Shown here: piece by piece, positions 6,285-18,423 of the stretch | Numbering within the stretch: the stretch's first letter is position 1 | How the letters are laid out: each line of letters opens with the position of its first letter | NCBI RefSeq assembly: GCF_019444005.1 | Contig: NZ_CP049304.1 | Location: 2,356,001 to 2,420,000, forward strand | Direction: 5' to 3' | Length of the DNA: 64,000 nucleotides | Source: Liquorilactobacillus nagelii DSM 13675 | GTDB taxonomy: Bacteria > Bacillota > Bacilli > Lactobacillales > Lactobacillaceae | Program-made: the position numbers and the translations under genes | Notes under the pieces: model-generated | What the model saw: the letters and a program-made list of their open reading frames with translations, nothing else | Database searches by the model: none | What the model was told of the DNA's origin: nothing

Positions 6285-6330
6285 TGGTATAAATTTAGAC
6301 GACAAACTTGTAATTTATGCTTAAATGGGG

Positions 6331-6690
6331 TTTAATAAAAATTAAAATAGAGTCTCCTAATTTTAATTAGGTGGATGAATGTCAAAATTATCAGAAACAA
6401 CATGGAATCGTCGCTAAAAAGTAAGAGTCTGCCGTGAAATCACGTACTAGCTATGAGTAATTATGACGTTGATTGGTGGATGCTAAAGCTTTTGGTAATT
6501 AGCATGTAAGATCTCTATTTGAAAATCTAAGTAAATTGTGGTCGATGCACTGTTAGATGCAGTTCTCACCAGCTTTTGACTTTAGTCGTTGACCTAGCTT
6601 GATATTGCGATGACGTTCGCAAACTAAATTTGAATGCTTTAATTAGCTGATGACGTCTAGTTCTGTTACAGAACTAGACGTCATTTTTTT
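6331..6690 (+). ncRNA. Structured leader RNA of unknown class, copy A
   Basis: About 360 bases that share several islands with copy B (14583-14941). These are a hairpin CCTAAT-TTTA-ATTAGG (6356-6371), an 18-base identical block GGTAATTAGCATGTAAGA (6494-6511), the motif CTGTTAG followed by CAG (near 6550), and a 3' module. The module is a hairpin TTGCGA-TGACGT-TCGCAA (6605-6622) followed by TGATGACGTC (6648-6657), which opens a strong terminator (6651-6690). It has the layout of a termination-controlled leader ahead of the MutS-like remnant. No known riboswitch class was recognised. A weak TTGTAA/TTTAAT promoter lies near 6308-6336. Confidence 0.65.
6651..6690 (+). terminator. Terminator of leader RNA A
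   Basis: TGACGTCTAGTTCTG pairs perfectly with CAGAACTAGACGTCA around a 3-base loop and is followed by 8 T. The 5' arm begins with the conserved TGACGTC of the A/B/C module. Confidence 0.85.
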
Positions 6691-6697
6691 TAGGAAG

Positions 6698-7726
6698 GTG
6701 GATAACATTAAAGTTAAATTATTGAATAAAACGCAAGAATACGCCAATTTAATGGAATTAAGATTAACTCCTGAGCAAACCAGATTGGCAAATCGTTTAA
6801 ATTTGCCAGAAATTTGTGATGTTATGGGTTCAGGAGATGACTTTATTTCAAGAATCAGCCAAAAAATGTTTTTTTGGCTGATTTGTTCTCGAGAAGATCT
6901 GCTATATTTGCAAGAAACGATTCAAGATGCTTTTGTGGATGAAAAGTTGGTTAAACGAATCTATCAATTGGTACCTAAAAATCGTTTAACTGTTGAAAAA
7001 GCTCTAAAAGATAAGCACTCAGTATCTTTAGCAGCAAAAATTAAGGTAATTAAGAATTTAGTCAAAGAGATTTATCTGATAAAATCTTGGGAATACTTTG
7101 GTTCAGACTTTGAAACAAGAAGTTATGGTGCGTCTTTTTTGAATTTCTTTTCACAATTTAACAATCTTCTATCGGAAGATAATTATTTTTATTGTAGAAG
7201 AATTTTACAACATCTTTATCATTTAGCTGTAACTGAAAAAGTTGTTGACAATCAAGCTACTGTAGAGAAGTTATGGGTAATTGTTTCTCCTTTGCTGGCT
7301 GAAGGCTCAACCAGCAAGAACTTAACCGTAACAACCATGATTGATCAACTATTTAGAGACCTAGTAGTTTTTTTTAAGGAACTTGAAGTTCAAATTGGTT
7401 GGTTAGTTGGAGTTATAAATTAAAAAAAAGCTTTGGGTAAAGGAGTCAAAATTTGTTATCCCCAATATGGGCAGGAATTTGAAATGATTGCTGGACAAGA
7501 TTTAGTAGCTTGTTTAAAGCAAGGTTCAAAAAAAGTTGTGTGGCTAGAGGATCAACAAGGCAAAGATATATTTGATGTTTATCTGAAATTGGGAATATCA
7601 GCAACTAAAAATACGCAATCAACAGTTTTATTGTTCCAGTTGATGGCCCAGTCAGGATTATTTGTTTTGGCTAAAAAATTTACTACACAACCACAATTAA
7701 ATATTTGGCAAGCAAAACTGGAATAA
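6698..7726 (+). pseudogene. Decayed MutS-like DNA mismatch repair ATPase
   Basis: One reading frame, interrupted by TAA at 7421-7423 and resuming in the same frame, resembles the MutS-like ATPases of Firmicutes. The N-terminal part reads RLTPEQTRLANRLNLPEICD, DDFISRISQKMFFW and later the helical core. After the stop, QGKDIFDVYLKL and LLFQLMAQSGLFVLAKKF correspond to the start and end of the ATPase lobe. The Walker A segment that should lie between them is missing, and the frame ends where about 150-200 residues should follow. So there is a nonsense codon, an internal deletion and a 3' truncation. The start is GTG 6698 or ATT 6707 after AGGAAGGTGG. The family call is from memory of family sequences and should be checked by search. 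Confidence 0.6.
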
Positions 7727-7769
7727 TTATTTCAGTTTCTTCTATTTGATAGAAAGGAGCTCCTCCAGA

Positions 7770-8039
7770 ATGAAAGAATTAGATTGCAAACTAAAAATCG
7801 AATATCTACTTGATGATTTAGACTTAGCTGAACAACGTAATGAAACTTATCATGGTGCATACCAGAAGCTTTTGGAAGTTAAGCGTAATTATTATGATGA
7901 GCTGGAAGTTATTTCTTTTGAAGCAGCTGTAGCTAATTTGATTACCGGATTAGCAAGGTGGGGGAAAAAACTACCGGCGCATCGACAACCCTTTAGATAT
8001 CTTAATCTGCAGGAATATGCTCAAACTTGTCTTAGTTAA
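7770..8039 (+). CDS. Hypothetical 89-residue protein
   Basis: Not recognised. The protein is soluble, charged and helical, starting MKELDCKLKIEYLLDDLDLA and ending LNLQEYAQTCLS, with no signal or membrane segment. The ATG at 7770 was chosen because AAAGGAG lies about 10 bases upstream; an in-frame TTG at 7746 has no ribosome site. It lies between the MutS-like remnant and a gatA paralogue, in the place where gatC would stand in a gatCAB operon, but it lacks GatC features and no similarity is claimed. Confidence 0.6.
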   Translation: MKELDCKLKIEYLLDDLDLAEQRNETYHGAYQKLLEVKRNYYDELEVISFEAAVANLITGLARWGKKLPAHRQPFRYLNLQEYAQTCLS

Positions 8040-8077
8040 CTGTAAAAAGCAAAATTATTTTTGAAATGAGGCATTTT

Positions 8078-9538
8078 ATGAATTACTTTAATCAAGACTT
8101 AACTCAGATTCACGCTGATTTAGTGGACAGAAAATATAGTGTTCAAGAATTAATTAAGGCAACTTATCAAAATATTGAACTTACTGACAAAAAAATTCAT
8201 GCCTTTTTAACGCTAAATAAACAAAAGGCAATGTTTCAAGCTCAAAAGGTTGATCAATCAGGAGCAGTTTTACAAAACTTATTGGCAGGAATTCCAATTG
8301 CGATTAAAGATAATATTGTGACTAAGTCATTAAAGACAACAGCGGCTTCGAAAATGCTAGCCAATTTTGTGCCAATTTATGATGCAACCGTGGTTGAAAG
8401 ATTGGCTGCTGAACAAATGATTAATATTGGCAAAACAAATTTGGATGAGTTTGCGATGGGCGGTTCTACTGAAAATTCGGCTTTTCAAACAACTAGAAAT
8501 CCTTGGAATCTAGCTTATGTTCCTGGCGGTTCATCGGGTGGCTCAGCAGCAGCAATTGCTTCAGGCCAGATTCCCGTTGCTTTAGGTTCTGATACTGGCG
8601 GATCTATTCGCCAGCCAGCTGCTTTCAATGGTATTGTCGGTATGAAGCCGACTTATGGTCGAGTTTCACGTTGGGGCTTAATTGCATTCAGTTCAAGCTT
8701 AGATGAGATTGGGGTTTTGTCAAAAACGGTCAAAGATAACGCAGTGATTTTATCAGTAATTGCGGGAAAAGATCAACGTGATGCGACATCTGTCAACCGA
8801 AATGTTCCAGATTTTACTAAGGAGTTAACATCTTTGGCTGACATTCATGGTTTAAAAATTGGAATTCCAAAAGAGTTTATTGGACCGGGGATCGATGACT
8901 GTATTAAGCAGACGGTTAACGAGACAGCAAAGAGGTTTGAAGAATTAGGTGCTAAAGTGCGGGAAATTTCTTTACCACACAATAAATACTGCGTGGCTGC
9001 CTATTATATTATTTCTTCATCGGAAGCATCTTCTAATCTGCAACGCTTTGATGGAGTGCGTTATGGCTACCATGCCGAAAATACTAAAAATTTGGATGAA
9101 CTGTATGTTAAATCAAGGGCAGAAGGCTTTGGTGATGAAGTAAAGCGGCGGATTATGTTGGGGACGTTTTCTTTATCAGCTGGATATTATGATGCTTATT
9201 ACAAGAAAGCAGCCCAAGTTAGGACATTAATTATTAGAGATTTTCGAAAGGCTTTTGAACAAGTTGATTTGATTTTAGGACCAGTAGCGCCAACGACGGC
9301 CTATAAAATTGGTCAAAATGTTACCGATCCTTTAAAAATGTATCTAAGTGATATTTTAACGATTCCGGTTAATATGGCAGGGCTTCCTGGGATGACGTTT
9401 CCTGCTGGTTTTAGCCAGGGGTTACCAATTGGTTTACAATTAATTGGCAAGTGGTTTGATGAACAGACAATTTATCGAGCTGGATATGTTTTTGAACGAA
9501 ATACAGACTTTCATCGACGGCATCCAATGTTGAAATAA
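8078..9538 (+). CDS. gatA: GatA-type amidase (glutamyl-tRNA(Gln) amidotransferase subunit A paralogue)
   Basis: A 486-residue amidase-signature protein. The Ser-cisSer-Lys triad is intact: Lys in AIKDN (about residue 77), cis-Ser in PGGSSGGSAAA (about 152) and the nucleophilic Ser in GSDTGGSIRQPA (about 175). Length and end regions match GatA, which frees ammonia from glutamine for transamidation of Glu-tRNA(Gln). However, gatC and gatB are not adjacent, so this is probably an extra copy or a stand-alone amidase, with gatCAB elsewhere. GAGG six bases before ATG 8078 decides the start; an ATG at 8066 overlaps that ribosome site. The unit ends in the shared terminator at 9565-9615. Confidence 0.85.
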   Translation: MNYFNQDLTQIHADLVDRKYSVQELIKATYQNIELTDKKIHAFLTLNKQKAMFQAQKVDQSGAVLQNLLAGIPIAIKDNIVTKSLKTTAASKMLANFVPIYDATVVERLAAEQMINIGKTNLDEFAMGGSTENSAFQTTRNPWNLAYVPGGSSGGSAAAIASGQIPVALGSDTGGSIRQPAAFNGIVGMKPTYGRVSRWGLIAFSSSLDEIGVLSKTVKDNAVILSVIAGKDQRDATSVNRNVPDFTKELTSLADIHGLKIGIPKEFIGPGIDDCIKQTVNETAKRFEELGAKVREISLPHNKYCVAAYYIISSSEASSNLQRFDGVRYGYHAENTKNLDELYVKSRAEGFGDEVKRRIMLGTFSLSAGYYDAYYKKAAQVRTLIIRDFRKAFEQVDLILGPVAPTTAYKIGQNVTDPLKMYLSDILTIPVNMAGLPGMTFPAGFSQGLPIGLQLIGKWFDEQTIYRAGYVFERNTDFHRRHPMLK

Positions 9539-14498: not shown

Positions 14499-14526
14499 TT
14501 GACATTTTTTCTTGAAGTGAGATAAT
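14499..14526 (+). promoter_or_regulatory. Promoter of leader RNA B
   Basis: TTGACA (14499-14504) and GATAAT (14521-14526) are spaced by 16 bp. The transcript would start near 14533 and first form a hairpin, CTCATG plus GGCA pairing with TGCC plus CATGAG (about 14534-14562). Confidence 0.7.
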
Positions 14527-14582: not shown

Positions 14583-14941
14583 TTTAATAAAAGTTAAGGC
14601 AAAATTTCCTAATTTTAGTTAGGTAGTGAATGCCCCAAATTTTTTACACGCTACTTTGACAAGCTTTACCAAAAACTAAGATCTGGTTGTGGAGCAGTAT
14701 AGCTTCGCTGTAAAGATTTAATTCGTGGGCAACATTACGACTTTAAAGGCTTTGGTAATTAGCATGTAAGACCTGCTTGCAGGCAATCGCGTTGTGGTTG
14801 CGCTGTTAGGTACAGTTTTCACAAACTTCTGGCTTTAGTTGGAAGTGGTTAACAAGCGATGACGTTCGCCAAATATTAATGACGTCTGAAAAACTCTTTT
14901 TTCTGAAAAGTTAAAAGATTGTTTTTCAGACGTCTTTTTTT
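14583..14941 (+). ncRNA. Structured leader RNA of unknown class, copy B
   Basis: The counterpart of copy A. It shares CCTAAT-TTTA-GTTAGG (near 14608; A to G keeps pairing as a wobble), the 18-base block GGTAATTAGCATGTAAGA (14755-14772), CTGTTAGGTACAG near 14812 and the hairpin GCGA-TGACGT-TCGC (14856-14869). ATGACGTC (14879-14886) then leads into the terminator. The middle part differs in sequence. In B, TTACCAAA (near 14675) can pair with TTTGGTAA of the shared block. It precedes an MFS gene and mntH, so a metal or nutrient signal is conceivable, but copies A and C precede unrelated genes. It does not match the M-box or yybP-ykoY consensus known to me. Confidence 0.68.
14881..14941 (+). terminator. 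Terminator of leader RNA B
   Basis: GACGTCTGAAAAAC pairs perfectly with GTTTTTCAGACGTC across an imperfect loop arm and is followed by a T-run. As in copy A, the 5' arm starts with the conserved GACGTC. Confidence 0.82.
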
Positions 14942-14980: not shown

Positions 14981-16177
14981 ATGGAACATCAGCGAAAAAA
15001 GCGCGAAATAATTATTGGTTTTGTATTATTTATGGGTTTAGTTAATTTTTTTGCGGACATGACTCATGAAGGAGCAAGGAGTATTTACGGATCTTATTTG
15101 GGATTATTAGGCATGAATGCTGCCAAAATTGGCTTTATTACTGGCTTTGGCGAATTTGTTGGCTATGCTTTACGTTTTTGGTCAGGAAGATATACTGATC
15201 GGTCAAAAAAGTATTGGTTGATAGCATTGGTTGGTTTTTCAATTAATATGGCAGCGATTCCAGCACTGGTATTGGTCAATAAAAATGGTTGGTTATTAGC
15301 TAGTTTTTTCATCGTAGCTGAGCGAATGGGACGAGCTTTACGTTTGCCGGCCAACAATACAATGCTGTCTTTTGCCGGGATGGAGGTTGGTGAAGGAAAG
15401 GCCTTTGCGATTGAGGAGTTTCTCGATTCAGTTGGCGCGTTTATCGGACCGGTTTATCTATATTTAATTATGTTATTCAAGCCGGTAGTGTCAGTCAATG
15501 ATTATCGGTTATTGTTTGGAGCATTGGCTTTGCCAGCAATAATTACTTTGATTGTTTTAGGCAAAGCTTATAAAAAGTTTCCGCAACCAGAGAAGTTTGC
15601 AAGTAAACCACAATTTAAATCTTTGAATCAGCCAAACAAAGCACTTTTGGTCTATGCATTTGGAATTTCGATGTTTGCCCTGGGCTTTATTGATTTTCCA
15701 ATAATCACAATGCATATTGCTCAACTAGGATTAGTTAGTACTGCTGATTTGCCGTTACTCTATGCCTATTCAATGCTGATTGGCGCCTTTTCAACCTTAA
15801 TTTTTGGCTATCTGTATGATTGGTTAGGATTAAAGACACTTGTTATCCCGGCACTATTGTCTGCGGGTTTTAGCTATTTCGTATTCGGTAACCGAAGTTT
15901 GGGGTTGATTATGCTTGGAATTACACTTTGGGGAATTGGGATGGGAGCTCAGGAGTCATTGATGGAATCGGTTATTGGGACAATAGTTCCTTCAGAAAAT
16001 CGAGCTTTTGGTTTCGGAATATTTGACATGATTTTTGGAATTTCTTGGTTCTTAGGTAGCTGGATTTCAGGAATTTTGTATGATCATTCGACTACTTTAA
16101 TGATTGTTTTTTCTATTGGAACACAGTTGTTAGCAATACCATGCTATTTATTTGTCGCTTGGAAAAATAAAATTTAA
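14981..16177 (+). CDS. MFS transporter, substrate unknown
   Basis: A 398-residue, 12-helix major facilitator protein. The loop after helix 2 reads [15 protein letters not shown], a variant of the MFS GxLaDrxGrr motif, and the central loop is short. An early acidic motif [15 protein letters not shown] in helix 1 is typical of one MFS branch often annotated only as permease. The substrate cannot be told. It follows leader RNA B, has AAAGGGGG as ribosome site, and lies 38 bp before mntH, so both probably respond to the same leader. Confidence 0.75.
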
Positions 16178-16215
16178 TAAACAAAACTATTTTTAGGCAA
16201 TTGGAGATGAGAATT

Positions 16216-17574
16216 TTGAAACAAGAAAAAGTATTAACAAAAGGGATGAAATTTAAAAAGATTTCAACTGCTAAAAGTTTGAGTGAAGTAAATGGAACAA
16301 TTCGGGTTCCACGAAATGCTAGTTTTTTCAAGACACTATTAGCGTATACAGGACCTGGGATCTTGATTGCGGTCGGATATATGGATCCAGGAAACTGGAT
16401 TACTTCTATTTCTAGTGGTTCACAGTACAAATATCGTCTGCTATCGGTGATCTTAATTTCAAGTTTGATTGCGATGTTGCTGCAAGAAATGTGTGCTCGC
16501 TTGGGAATTGTAACCGGAAAAGATTTAGCTCAACTGACACGAGAACATACTTCTAAATGGGGGGGATTTTTTCTTTGGATTATCGCTGAACTGGCAATTA
16601 TGGCAACCGATATTGCTGAAGTAATCGGCTCCGGAATTGCGCTTAAGCTACTATTTAAAATACCATTAATTGCAGGTATTTTAATTACAACAGCGGATGT
16701 TTTACTGTTGCTATTCTTATTGAAACTTGGTTTTCGTAAAATTGAAGCAATTATTGCTGCTTTGGTCATTACGATTTTAGGTGTTTTTTCCTATGAAGTG
16801 TTGTTGGCTGGACCAAATGTGGCTGAAATTTTTAAGGGCTATGTTCCAAGCAAACAAATTGTTCTTAATAACTCAATGCTTTATTTAACTTTAGGAATTG
16901 TGGGGGCCACTGTCATGCCACATGATTTGTACTTAGGCTCATCGATTTCACAAACACGATCAGTTGATCGGCATGATCCACAAATGGTAGCGAAAGCTTT
17001 ACGTTTTAGTAAGTTGGATTCAAATATTCAATTAATAGTCGCTTTTGTTGTTAATAGTTTATTGTTGATTCTTGGCGCTGCTTTATTTTATGGGACAACT
17101 AGTAAAACGGGACAATTTGCTGATTTGTTTTATTCACTTGATAATTCAAAAATTATCGGGGGGATTGCTAGTCCTTTATTAAGCATTTTGTTTGCCGTTG
17201 CTTTACTAGCCTCGGGTCAAAGTTCAACTATTACAGGGACTTTGGCTGGACAAGTTGTAATGGAAGGCTTTATCCACTTGAAGGTTTCGCCTTGGATTCA
17301 GCGCTTGGTGACACGTTTGTTTTCGGTGACTCCGGTATTAATCTTTGCAATTTACTATCAAGGAAATGAAGTGGAGTTAGAAAAACTACTAACCTTTTCA
17401 CAGGTCTTTTTAAGTATTGCTTTGCCATTTGCAGCAATCCCACTAGTTATTTTTACGAGCAGTACAAAAATTATGGGAAGGTTTGCTAATCGAAAATTGA
17501 CGAATATTCTAGCTTGGCTGGCAACACTGGTTTTGGTTATTTTAAATGTCTATTTGATTTTTAACACGCTTTGA
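16216..17574 (+). CDS. mntH: Nramp-family divalent metal transporter (MntH)
   Basis: A proton-coupled Mn2+/Fe2+ importer of the plasma membrane with 11 helices. Helix 1 carries GYMDPGNW, with the metal-binding Asp and Asn, and helix 6 carries [14 protein letters not shown]. The Met of MPH is the residue that favours Mn/Fe over Mg and Ca, so this is a classic MntH rather than an Nramp-related Mg transporter. Start is uncertain: TTG 16216 follows GGAGATGAG by about 9 bases and is preferred (452 residues); ATG 16207 and TTG 16201 are in frame but overlap the ribosome site. It is second in the unit behind leader RNA B. Confidence 0.88.
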
Positions 17575-17610: not shown

Positions 17611-17616
17611 GAAAAA

Positions 17617-17706
17617 AATTAATAAGCGATGACGTTCGCTAATGGAGTTCCTGATGACGTCTACAATGACTTTCTGGTAAAAGAAGGTTTTTGTAGACTT
17701 TTTTTA
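17617..17706 (+). ncRNA. Minimal leader RNA C with the shared 3' module
   Basis: It contains only the 3' module of copies A and B: hairpin AGCGA-TGACGT-TCGCT (17625-17640), a 12-base linker, then TGATGACGTC (17652-17661). A terminator follows in which GTCTACAA (17659-17666) pairs with TTGTAGAC (17691-17698) before seven T. The stem bases vary among A, B and C while pairing and the TGACGT loop stay constant, which supports a real RNA hairpin. The GACGT of the loop can pair with ACGTC at the terminator foot. Confidence 0.62.
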
Positions 17707-17736
17707 TGAGAAAAAATTTTATACGAGGTGATTAAT

Positions 17737-18423
17737 ATGAAACCAGCAAGAAAAATAGTTCCAGCGTTGAATTCTGAATTAAGGACAGAAATTGTTAAAG
17801 CTCCAGAAATTATTAAAAATGCAACGGGAATTAATTTATATGGTAAGCGAATCAAAAGCATTATTTATACAATGGATGTGGCCGTAATCGCTAATTGTAA
17901 TGCCGATGCTGTTCTAGCGGTTTATCCGTGGACACCAAATACTAAGATTATTGATGCAATTGCTACAATTTCACATGTACCTATTCTTGCTGGGATCGGC
18001 GGCGGCTTAACTAAAGGGTTACGATCGGCAACAATTGGCCTTTTTGCTGAAGAACATGGTGTTCAAGCAGTTGTGCTAAATGCCCCAACAACCATTGAAA
18101 CAATAAAATCTGTTCATAAAGTTGTTGATGTCCCGCTGATCTATACAGTTGTTAATCAAAATGTTGATCTACGTGAGCGGATTCAGGCTGGAGTTAAGGC
18201 TTTTAATATCGCCGGTGGTAAAAAAACAGCTGAATTAGTTGCTTGGGTGCGCCATCAAATTGCAGTGGAAGCACCAAATTTTCCATTAATAGCATCAGGC
18301 GGCAGGACTACAGCTGAAATTCAAGCAACGATCGATGCTGGAGCAAATGCAATTAGCTTTACTGCCTATGGAATGACAGAAGCAATTTTTCAACACAAAA
18401 TGGAACAGTATCGAGAAAGGTAA
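17737..18423 (+). CDS. TIM-barrel protein of unknown function
   Basis: A 228-residue soluble protein with a beta/alpha-barrel pattern: TMDVAVIANCNADAVLAVYP, then LAGIGGGLTKG, VQAVVLNAPTT, FNIAGGKKTAEL and the phosphate-site-like ending LIASGGRTTAEIQATIDAGA. The last motif resembles those of NanE, ThiE and HisF-type barrels, so a phosphorylated substrate is likely, but the reaction is not known to me. ATG 17737 was chosen because CGAGGTGA lies about 7 bases upstream; GTG 17728 is in frame. It is 9 bp upstream of a phosphatase gene and follows leader RNA C. Confidence 0.6.
   Translation: MKPARKIVPALNSELRTEIVKAPEIIKNATGINLYGKRIKSIIYTMDVAVIANCNADAVLAVYPWTPNTKIIDAIATISHVPILAGIGGGLTKGLRSATIGLFAEEHGVQAVVLNAPTTIETIKSVHKVVDVPLIYTVVNQNVDLRERIQAGVKAFNIAGGKKTAELVAWVRHQIAVEAPNFPLIASGGRTTAEIQATIDAGANAISFTAYGMTEAIFQHKMEQYRER

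Follow-up and report, generated by a model that had tools for sequence, protein, structure and literature searches.

The 360-nt repeat that an initial annotation took for one large leader RNA of no nameable class consists of two known kinds of element placed one after the other, namely a degraded miniature transposon (TnpB type) and, behind it, a fluoride riboswitch and its terminator. It occurs twice in the stretch of Liquorilactobacillus nagelii DSM 13675 DNA that was analysed (the window; 64,000 nucleotides of contig NZ_CP049304.1), as copy A (6331–6690) and copy B (14583–14941), and each copy is a chimera of two separate units, a 5′ segment of ~260 nt and a 3′ segment of ~90 nt. A and B are very probably two IS200/IS605 TnpB derivatives with different internal deletions, each inserted 3′ of a TTTAAT and just upstream of a fluoride riboswitch (Table 1).

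Table 1. Features of copies A and B, of riboswitch C, and of the operons behind A and B, in window coordinates.
Feature	Coordinates	Strand	Basis and remarks
Possible promoter at A, TTGTAA, 17 nt, then TTTAAT as −10	6308..6313 and 6331..6336	+	Inferred; promoter scan silent
TTTAAT target/TAM, left edge of element A	6331..6336	+	TTTAAT/TTCAAT also at left ends of parents
Element A, degenerate non-autonomous IS200/IS605-type (TnpB)	6337..6593	+	Ends, tnpB pieces, alignment with parents
Left-end subterminal palindrome of A, CCTAATTTTAATTAGG	6356..6371	+	
Two tnpB remnants in A	6384..6476	+	blastn to 2364–2394 and 2498–2554 of intact parent L127
Remains of the omega-RNA scaffold in A, with the right end (last bases GTTGAC)	6478..6593	+	25 of the 45 pairs remain; 8 are broken and 12 fall in gaps
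Aptamer A	6597..6666	+	RF01734, 26.5 bits, E 3.3e-5; P1 6607–6610/6617–6620, pseudoknot 6612–6616/6653–6657
Intrinsic terminator of A	6650..6691	+	Terminator scan, inverted repeat; 5′ arm contains pseudoknot strand (mutually exclusive)
Operon behind A: three ORFs (257, 97, and 97 aa; first start uncertain) and a second gatA-like amidase gene	6700..9538	+	
Promoter-like TTGACA-16-GATAAT upstream of element B	14499..14526	+	11/12 matches, consensus only
TTTAAT target/TAM, left edge of element B	14583..14588	+	
Element B, degenerate non-autonomous IS200/IS605-type, with a tnpB piece unlike those of A	14589..14853	+	
Left-end subterminal palindrome of B, CCTAATTTTAGTTAGG	14608..14623	+	
tnpB remnant in B	14637..14692	+	blastn to 2428–2483 of parent L127, E 0.001
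Remains of the omega-RNA scaffold in B, with the right end (last bases GTTAAC)	14697..14853	+	26 of the 45 pairs remain; 3 are broken and 16 fall in gaps
Aptamer B, P3 not visible	14846..14895	+	RF01734, 19.9 bits, E 0.004; P1 14856–14859/14866–14869, pseudoknot 14861–14865/14882–14886
Terminator-like inverted repeat of B and T run	14878..14941	+	Absent from terminator scan; 5′ arm contains pseudoknot strand
Operon behind B: genes for an MFS transporter and a divalent metal transporter of the Nramp/MntH type	14981..17574	+	
Third riboswitch, C, without transposon	17616..17670	+	RF01734, 31.8 bits, E 1.8e-7; P1 17626–17629/17636–17639, pseudoknot 17631–17635/17657–17661

The 360-nt repeat comprises two units

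The ordered islands described in the initial annotation are present in both copies, including the left-end hairpin CCTAAT-TTTA-RTTAGG and a CTGTTAG..CAG island that falls inside the omega RNA. The identical block reported as 18 bases is real but is 21 bases long, at 6491–6511 in A and 14751–14771 in B (where the earlier position was off by one base), and with up to three mismatches allowed it has two matches, against an average of 0.02 over 100 shuffles. In folding, each copy surpasses every one of 100 shuffled versions (z of −3.69 and −5.12), in keeping with the proposal of a structured RNA, and the repeat probably does lie in a transcribed leader.

The two segments nonetheless have separate distributions. 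A search of the L. nagelii genome with A returns many partial matches, nearly all of them inside the first ~260 nt, and a search with B returns one extra place (1192483, minus strand). Relatives of the 5′ ~260 nt are present at at least 15 further genomic places, none of them beside a match to the fluoride riboswitch model RF01734, and the 3′ module is present without the 5′ part at 17616–17670 (riboswitch C) and elsewhere. The repeat is therefore two units rather than one. The shared islands, the favourable folding, and the finding that 14 of 16 copies are co-oriented with the next gene could all have been accommodated by a single large riboswitch or protein-responsive leader of lactobacilli, folding over the entire 360 nt, but with the parts found apart, and with the 5′ part matching intact TnpB transposons at its two ends as well as internally, that reading is almost certainly wrong. 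The idea of a termination-type riboswitch survives for the 3′ part, which looks like one; the 5′ three quarters are an IS200/IS605 (TnpB) relic.

Degenerate TnpB elements in the L. nagelii genome

The genome has at least 17 dispersed copies of the element, 16 of which were examined (14 read beside A and B, with the copy at 1192483 left out and the weak matches L025–L027 uncounted). Where the left edge is kept it has TTTAAT or a variant of it, an AT-rich stretch, and a palindrome like CCTAATTTTAATTAGG, and where the right edge is kept there is a GACTTTAGTC hairpin followed by GTGGTTGAC. When 14 of the left ends are aligned, TTTAAT is present in six and a one-base variant in six more, and neither is present in L013 or L022. 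Some copies reach lengths of up to ~1 kb and have recognisable TnpB zinc-finger codons, with PF07282 matched below its cut-off in three, and translations of eight parental TnpB ORFs match 11 of the 16 copies at E≤1e-3 (tblastn, small 16-sequence database); A is among these (E 3.7e-5 with intact TnpB), and there is no match in B, L013, L014, L017, or L023. In the genome as a whole there are three PF07282 fragments, all below the cut-off, no Y1_Tnp match at E≤0.01, and no intact TnpB that we could find, and the copies are thus probably immobile relics.

A and B keep different pieces of tnpB, suggesting separate insertions rather than duplication of one unit. In B the element lies between TTTAAT and AAGCGATGACG, and the corresponding sequence in C reads TTAATAAGCGATGACG, which is consistent with a precise insertion at the riboswitch edge. 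An empty site was not found in 13 sister species with the MFS gene of B and the amidase gene of A as queries, and B itself as a query gave one weak 33-base match in these species (G008, E 0.002).

Fifteen of the 16 copies are oriented with leading-strand replication away from dnaA, which is at 2.008 Mb on C1 (two-sided binomial 5e-4, assuming that C1 is circular and that the terminus is opposite dnaA); only the copy at 1.10 Mb runs the other way. Such a bias would be produced by elements that enter the lagging-strand template, as is described for IS608 and ISDra2 (PMC6006769), and replication-linked orientation may also explain the co-orientation of the copies with the next gene. Promoter targeting was considered as a rule and rejected, as the TTTAAT of A is a possible −10 box but the other copies, by eye, follow terminators or sit elsewhere. 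By chance, 0.06–0.13 copies would be expected near fluoride riboswitches and two or more would be seen with a probability of 0.002–0.007, although this estimate is post hoc, uses the TTTAAT density of one window, and is not strong.

As the riboswitch begins immediately 3′ of the element, the guide of an omega RNA made from B would be riboswitch sequence, and the first 16 bases of this guide (AAGCGATGACGTTCGC) match C exactly, directly after TTAAT, within the window. One can imagine that, in the time when TnpB was still there, such guides cut sister fluoride riboswitches and that repair pulled the elements in, such that they spread along the riboswitch regulon under omega-RNA guidance. We regard this as very improbable; if it were true, a repeated regulatory RNA would be a family of landing sites.

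Intact parents and the omega RNA

A right-end model based on 12 of the L. nagelii copies matches 72 of 397 Lactobacillaceae genomes, its own included, and 16 of 40 sampled genera (strict filters, with scoring limited to 11 candidates in each genome), with none in the 13 sister species. An ORF with a TnpB C-terminus is immediately upstream in 20 of the 30 right-end loci listed. Relatives of the parental TnpB are present at 43 loci, for example in Ligilactobacillus ubinensis, Bombilactobacillus mellis, and Levilactobacillus brevis, and a plasmid copy in Levilactobacillus suantsaii is annotated as 'RNA-guided endonuclease TnpB family protein'. TnpB genes in sister genomes (L084–L086 were read) were ruled out as the parent by their different right ends.

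The parents, which reside in other Lactobacillaceae, have tnpA and a ~420-residue TnpB together with the same ends. The parental protein has matches to Cas12f1-like_TNB and OrfB_IS605, and the element also carries, upstream and in divergent orientation, a gene that matches Y1_Tnp. Nine parental regions were taken and eight were used, L133 being too short; in six of the eight a left end is found beyond tnpA, with TTTAAT in five and TTCAAT in one, and two have no match. A is collinear with the parent at L127 through its left end, two bits of tnpB, and the omega RNA and right end; in B, the tnpB bit and the omega RNA and right end map to L127 and the left end matches those of the parents.

With the exception of the left-end hairpin and the 3′ module, the conserved islands of the initial annotation sit in the interval from the stop codon of tnpB to the right end, a region that in ISDra2 is described as giving rise to a ~150-nt reRNA (Karvelis et al. 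2021, PMC8612924). An alignment of 23 rows, comprising A, B, and 21 of the 30 loci L097–L126, yields a scaffold of five helices and 45 pairs, 16 of them with double changes (0 of 500 shuffles), and three of the helices are well supported. The nine loci omitted (L098–L101, L110, L113, L118, L120, and L121) were set aside for cut contigs, an own copy, the lack of a TnpB ORF, or masked bases. Scaffold cells are paired in 96.3% of cases, compared with 33–44% for slid structures, and as the structure was derived from the same alignment these statistics favour it. The 12 L. nagelii copies alone contain no scaffold pair with a double change, and a search of Rfam with three parental loci at E≤0.01 gave no family match to the omega RNA. 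Homologues outside the strain, and covariation, were anticipated in the initial annotation and both are found, in that the omega RNA covaries among the parents.

The 21 parental loci keep 40–45 of the 45 scaffold pairs, compared with 25 in A and 26 in B, where three and four of the missing pairs, respectively, are due only to slice boundaries. Neither scaffold in the window is intact, and this decay is a further point against one large folded leader.

Fluoride riboswitches

The 3′ quarter of each copy corresponds to the fluoride riboswitch (RF01734), a class absent from those with which the repeat had been compared when it was thought to be of an unnamed class. The RF01734 gathering score of 34 bits is not reached by A, B, or C, and the match to a known class, which the initial annotation would have taken as refuting its proposal, is thus at a sub-threshold level, although it is backed by three siblings in the genome that are over the cut-off. 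There are seven RF01734 matches in the genome at E≤0.01, the four besides A, B, and C being at C1 762272, 818927, 2275898, and 2276859; an eighth (13.7 bits, E 0.5) was dropped from the credible count. Other Rfam classes gave nothing over the gathering score in the window, and weak matches to microRNA-like and other families were taken as hairpin noise.

Apart from A and B, the five credible riboswitches of the genome precede eno, a tandem CRCB pair, a phosphodiesterase-like gene (L029), a MutS-like gene, and the gene at 17728–18423 behind C. The phosphodiesterase-like and MutS-like assignments are both below NCBIfam cut-offs, and the label PPase for the L029 gene was dropped. The aptamer before the MutS-like gene (L032:1501–1554) also has no visible P3. 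Four of the 13 sister species have RF01734 matches over threshold and one more species has a match of 27.7 bits, with none to two per species; the six sister loci that were read lie, by eye, before eno or crcB-like genes, and the matches at L044 and L046 were dropped as they are inside long ORFs.

In an alignment of 13 aptamers, 98.3% of the P1 and pseudoknot cells are paired, and the pseudoknot is intact in all 13, with G-C pairs replaced by A-U and U-A pairs by C-G. The double-change cells (14) and the covariation score exceed those of all 500 shuffles; the number of pairs with double changes (four) is equalled by 50 of the 500, for a structure drawn on this same alignment.

By our placing of the class numbering, the pair A40-U48 is kept in A and B, and on this numbering B departs at conserved positions G39 (to A) and A49 (to G). 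A40-U48 is described as the linchpin pair of the fluoride riboswitch (PMC8752731). The outer P1 pair of B is broken, as it is in one sister-species aptamer. Together with the score of 19.9 bits and the lack of a visible P3, the two changed positions and the broken pair raise the alternative that the 3′ modules, B above all, are decayed fluoride riboswitches that are constitutively terminated or open. This seems unlikely, as the P1 core, the pseudoknot, and the terminator overlap are intact, each of the two unusual bases of B occurs singly in a sibling riboswitch, and a similarly short aptamer precedes the MutS-like gene.

Terminators, promoters, and predicted regulation

That the 3′ module ends in a terminator is confirmed in A by the terminator scan, whereas in B there is an inverted repeat before a T run that the scan does not list. 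In C a terminator-like hairpin extending to ~17706 can be seen by eye and is likewise absent from the scan. In both A and B the sequence overlap between terminator and pseudoknot makes the two structures mutually exclusive. As far as can be read from the DNA itself, the copies contain transposon ends, tnpB fragments, an omega-RNA scaffold, an aptamer, and an overlapping terminator.

A promoter-like site is present upstream of element B, such that the relic would be transcribed as a 5′ UTR, and for A we infer a promoter at its left edge. Fluoride binding in Bacillus cereus is described as disrupting the terminator (PMC8752731). If A and B follow the mechanism of the class, then without fluoride the terminator would form and transcription would end near 6690 or 14941, and with Mg-fluoride bound the P1 loop would instead pair with the 5′ arm of the terminator to form the pseudoknot, such that RNA polymerase would continue, in A into the gatA-like operon and in B into the MFS-mntH operon. 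By this analogy, fluoride most likely antiterminates the predicted operons behind both copies, and the transposon part would be carried along in the 5′ UTR, no longer mobile and without contributing to sensing.

Modelling suggests that the relic does not block P1, which has a pairing probability of 0.78 in the A chimera and 0.44 in the excised aptamer, and of 0.93 and 0.38 in B, a weak comparison in that the excised controls differ in length. These values, and the insertion in A directly after a possible −10 box, by which that promoter would stay intact, invite the suggestion that the omega-RNA relic has been exapted to aid the riboswitch, whether through a new 5′ end, insulation of P1, or message stability. 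Such exaptation is distinctly improbable, given that C pairs at 0.99 without a relic and that the relics decay and keep different pieces of tnpB.

Downstream genes

The three ORFs at the start of the predicted fluoride-controlled operon behind A have no Pfam or NCBIfam match. The gatA-like amidase gene that follows is at 8066–9538, and another full-length copy is present at C1 1687358. Matches to the A amidase in the 13 sister species are at most 65% identical, and these are most likely ordinary gatA.

The MFS transporter gene behind B (14981–16177) is rare, being found at E≤1e-40 in two of 397 family genomes, namely its own and one in which the relative is 55% identical. It has no match at E≤1e-30 in the 13 sister species, a first contig search with the MFS protein as query returned no relative, and no RF01734 match lies beside the MFS relative in G299. 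The gene at 17728–18423 behind C has no Pfam or NCBIfam match and shows very weak PDB similarities only, the best being to an aldolase (E 0.03); a nanE assignment for this gene was rejected, as no family search supports it.

Comparison with known systems

No description of this transposon–riboswitch fusion was found in a literature search that covered titles and the openings of abstracts, with most subscription journals outside its reach. The parts are of known kinds, and it is the fusion, the two predicted fluoride-controlled operons, and the omega-RNA family without an Rfam match that look new, if modestly so. One candidate orphan riboswitch is removed, its appearance being explained by an omega RNA that covaries lying in series with a known aptamer. 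Two operons, a second gatA-like one and the MFS-mntH one, join those predicted to be under fluoride control, and a TnpB family found in 16 of the 40 sampled Lactobacillaceae genera gains an omega-RNA model supported by covariation. Because TnpB right ends are structured, repeated, and here often just upstream of genes, scans for leader RNAs should mask them.

Non-autonomous derivatives of bacterial insertion sequences include MITEs and, within the IS200/IS605 family, PATEs. The L. nagelii copies resemble these in being short and internally deleted with both ends kept, and in presumably having moved in trans, but they differ in that several keep pieces of tnpB and the omega scaffold, with internal deletions that vary between copies.

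As described for IS200/IS605 TnpB transposons such as ISDra2 (PMC8612924), the elements have subterminal palindromes at the left and right ends and a replication-linked orientation, their parents encode a Y1 transposase and TnpB, and, as in ISDra2, insertion is 3′ of a short target (which is the TAM in ISDra2) and a right-end RNA of ~150 nt extends between the 3′ end of tnpB and the right end. They depart from the ISDra2 described there in having TTTAAT rather than TTGAT as target, and in that the L. nagelii copies are deleted and decayed and have neither TnpA nor an intact TnpB.

The riboswitch halves share with RF01734, as described in PMC8752731, the P1 helix, the loop-to-3′ pseudoknot, the linchpin, the overlap with a terminator, and siblings at eno and crcB. 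Unlike curated members of RF01734, A and B score below the cut-off, B has no P3, and ~260 nt of transposon lie between the aptamer and the upstream sequence.
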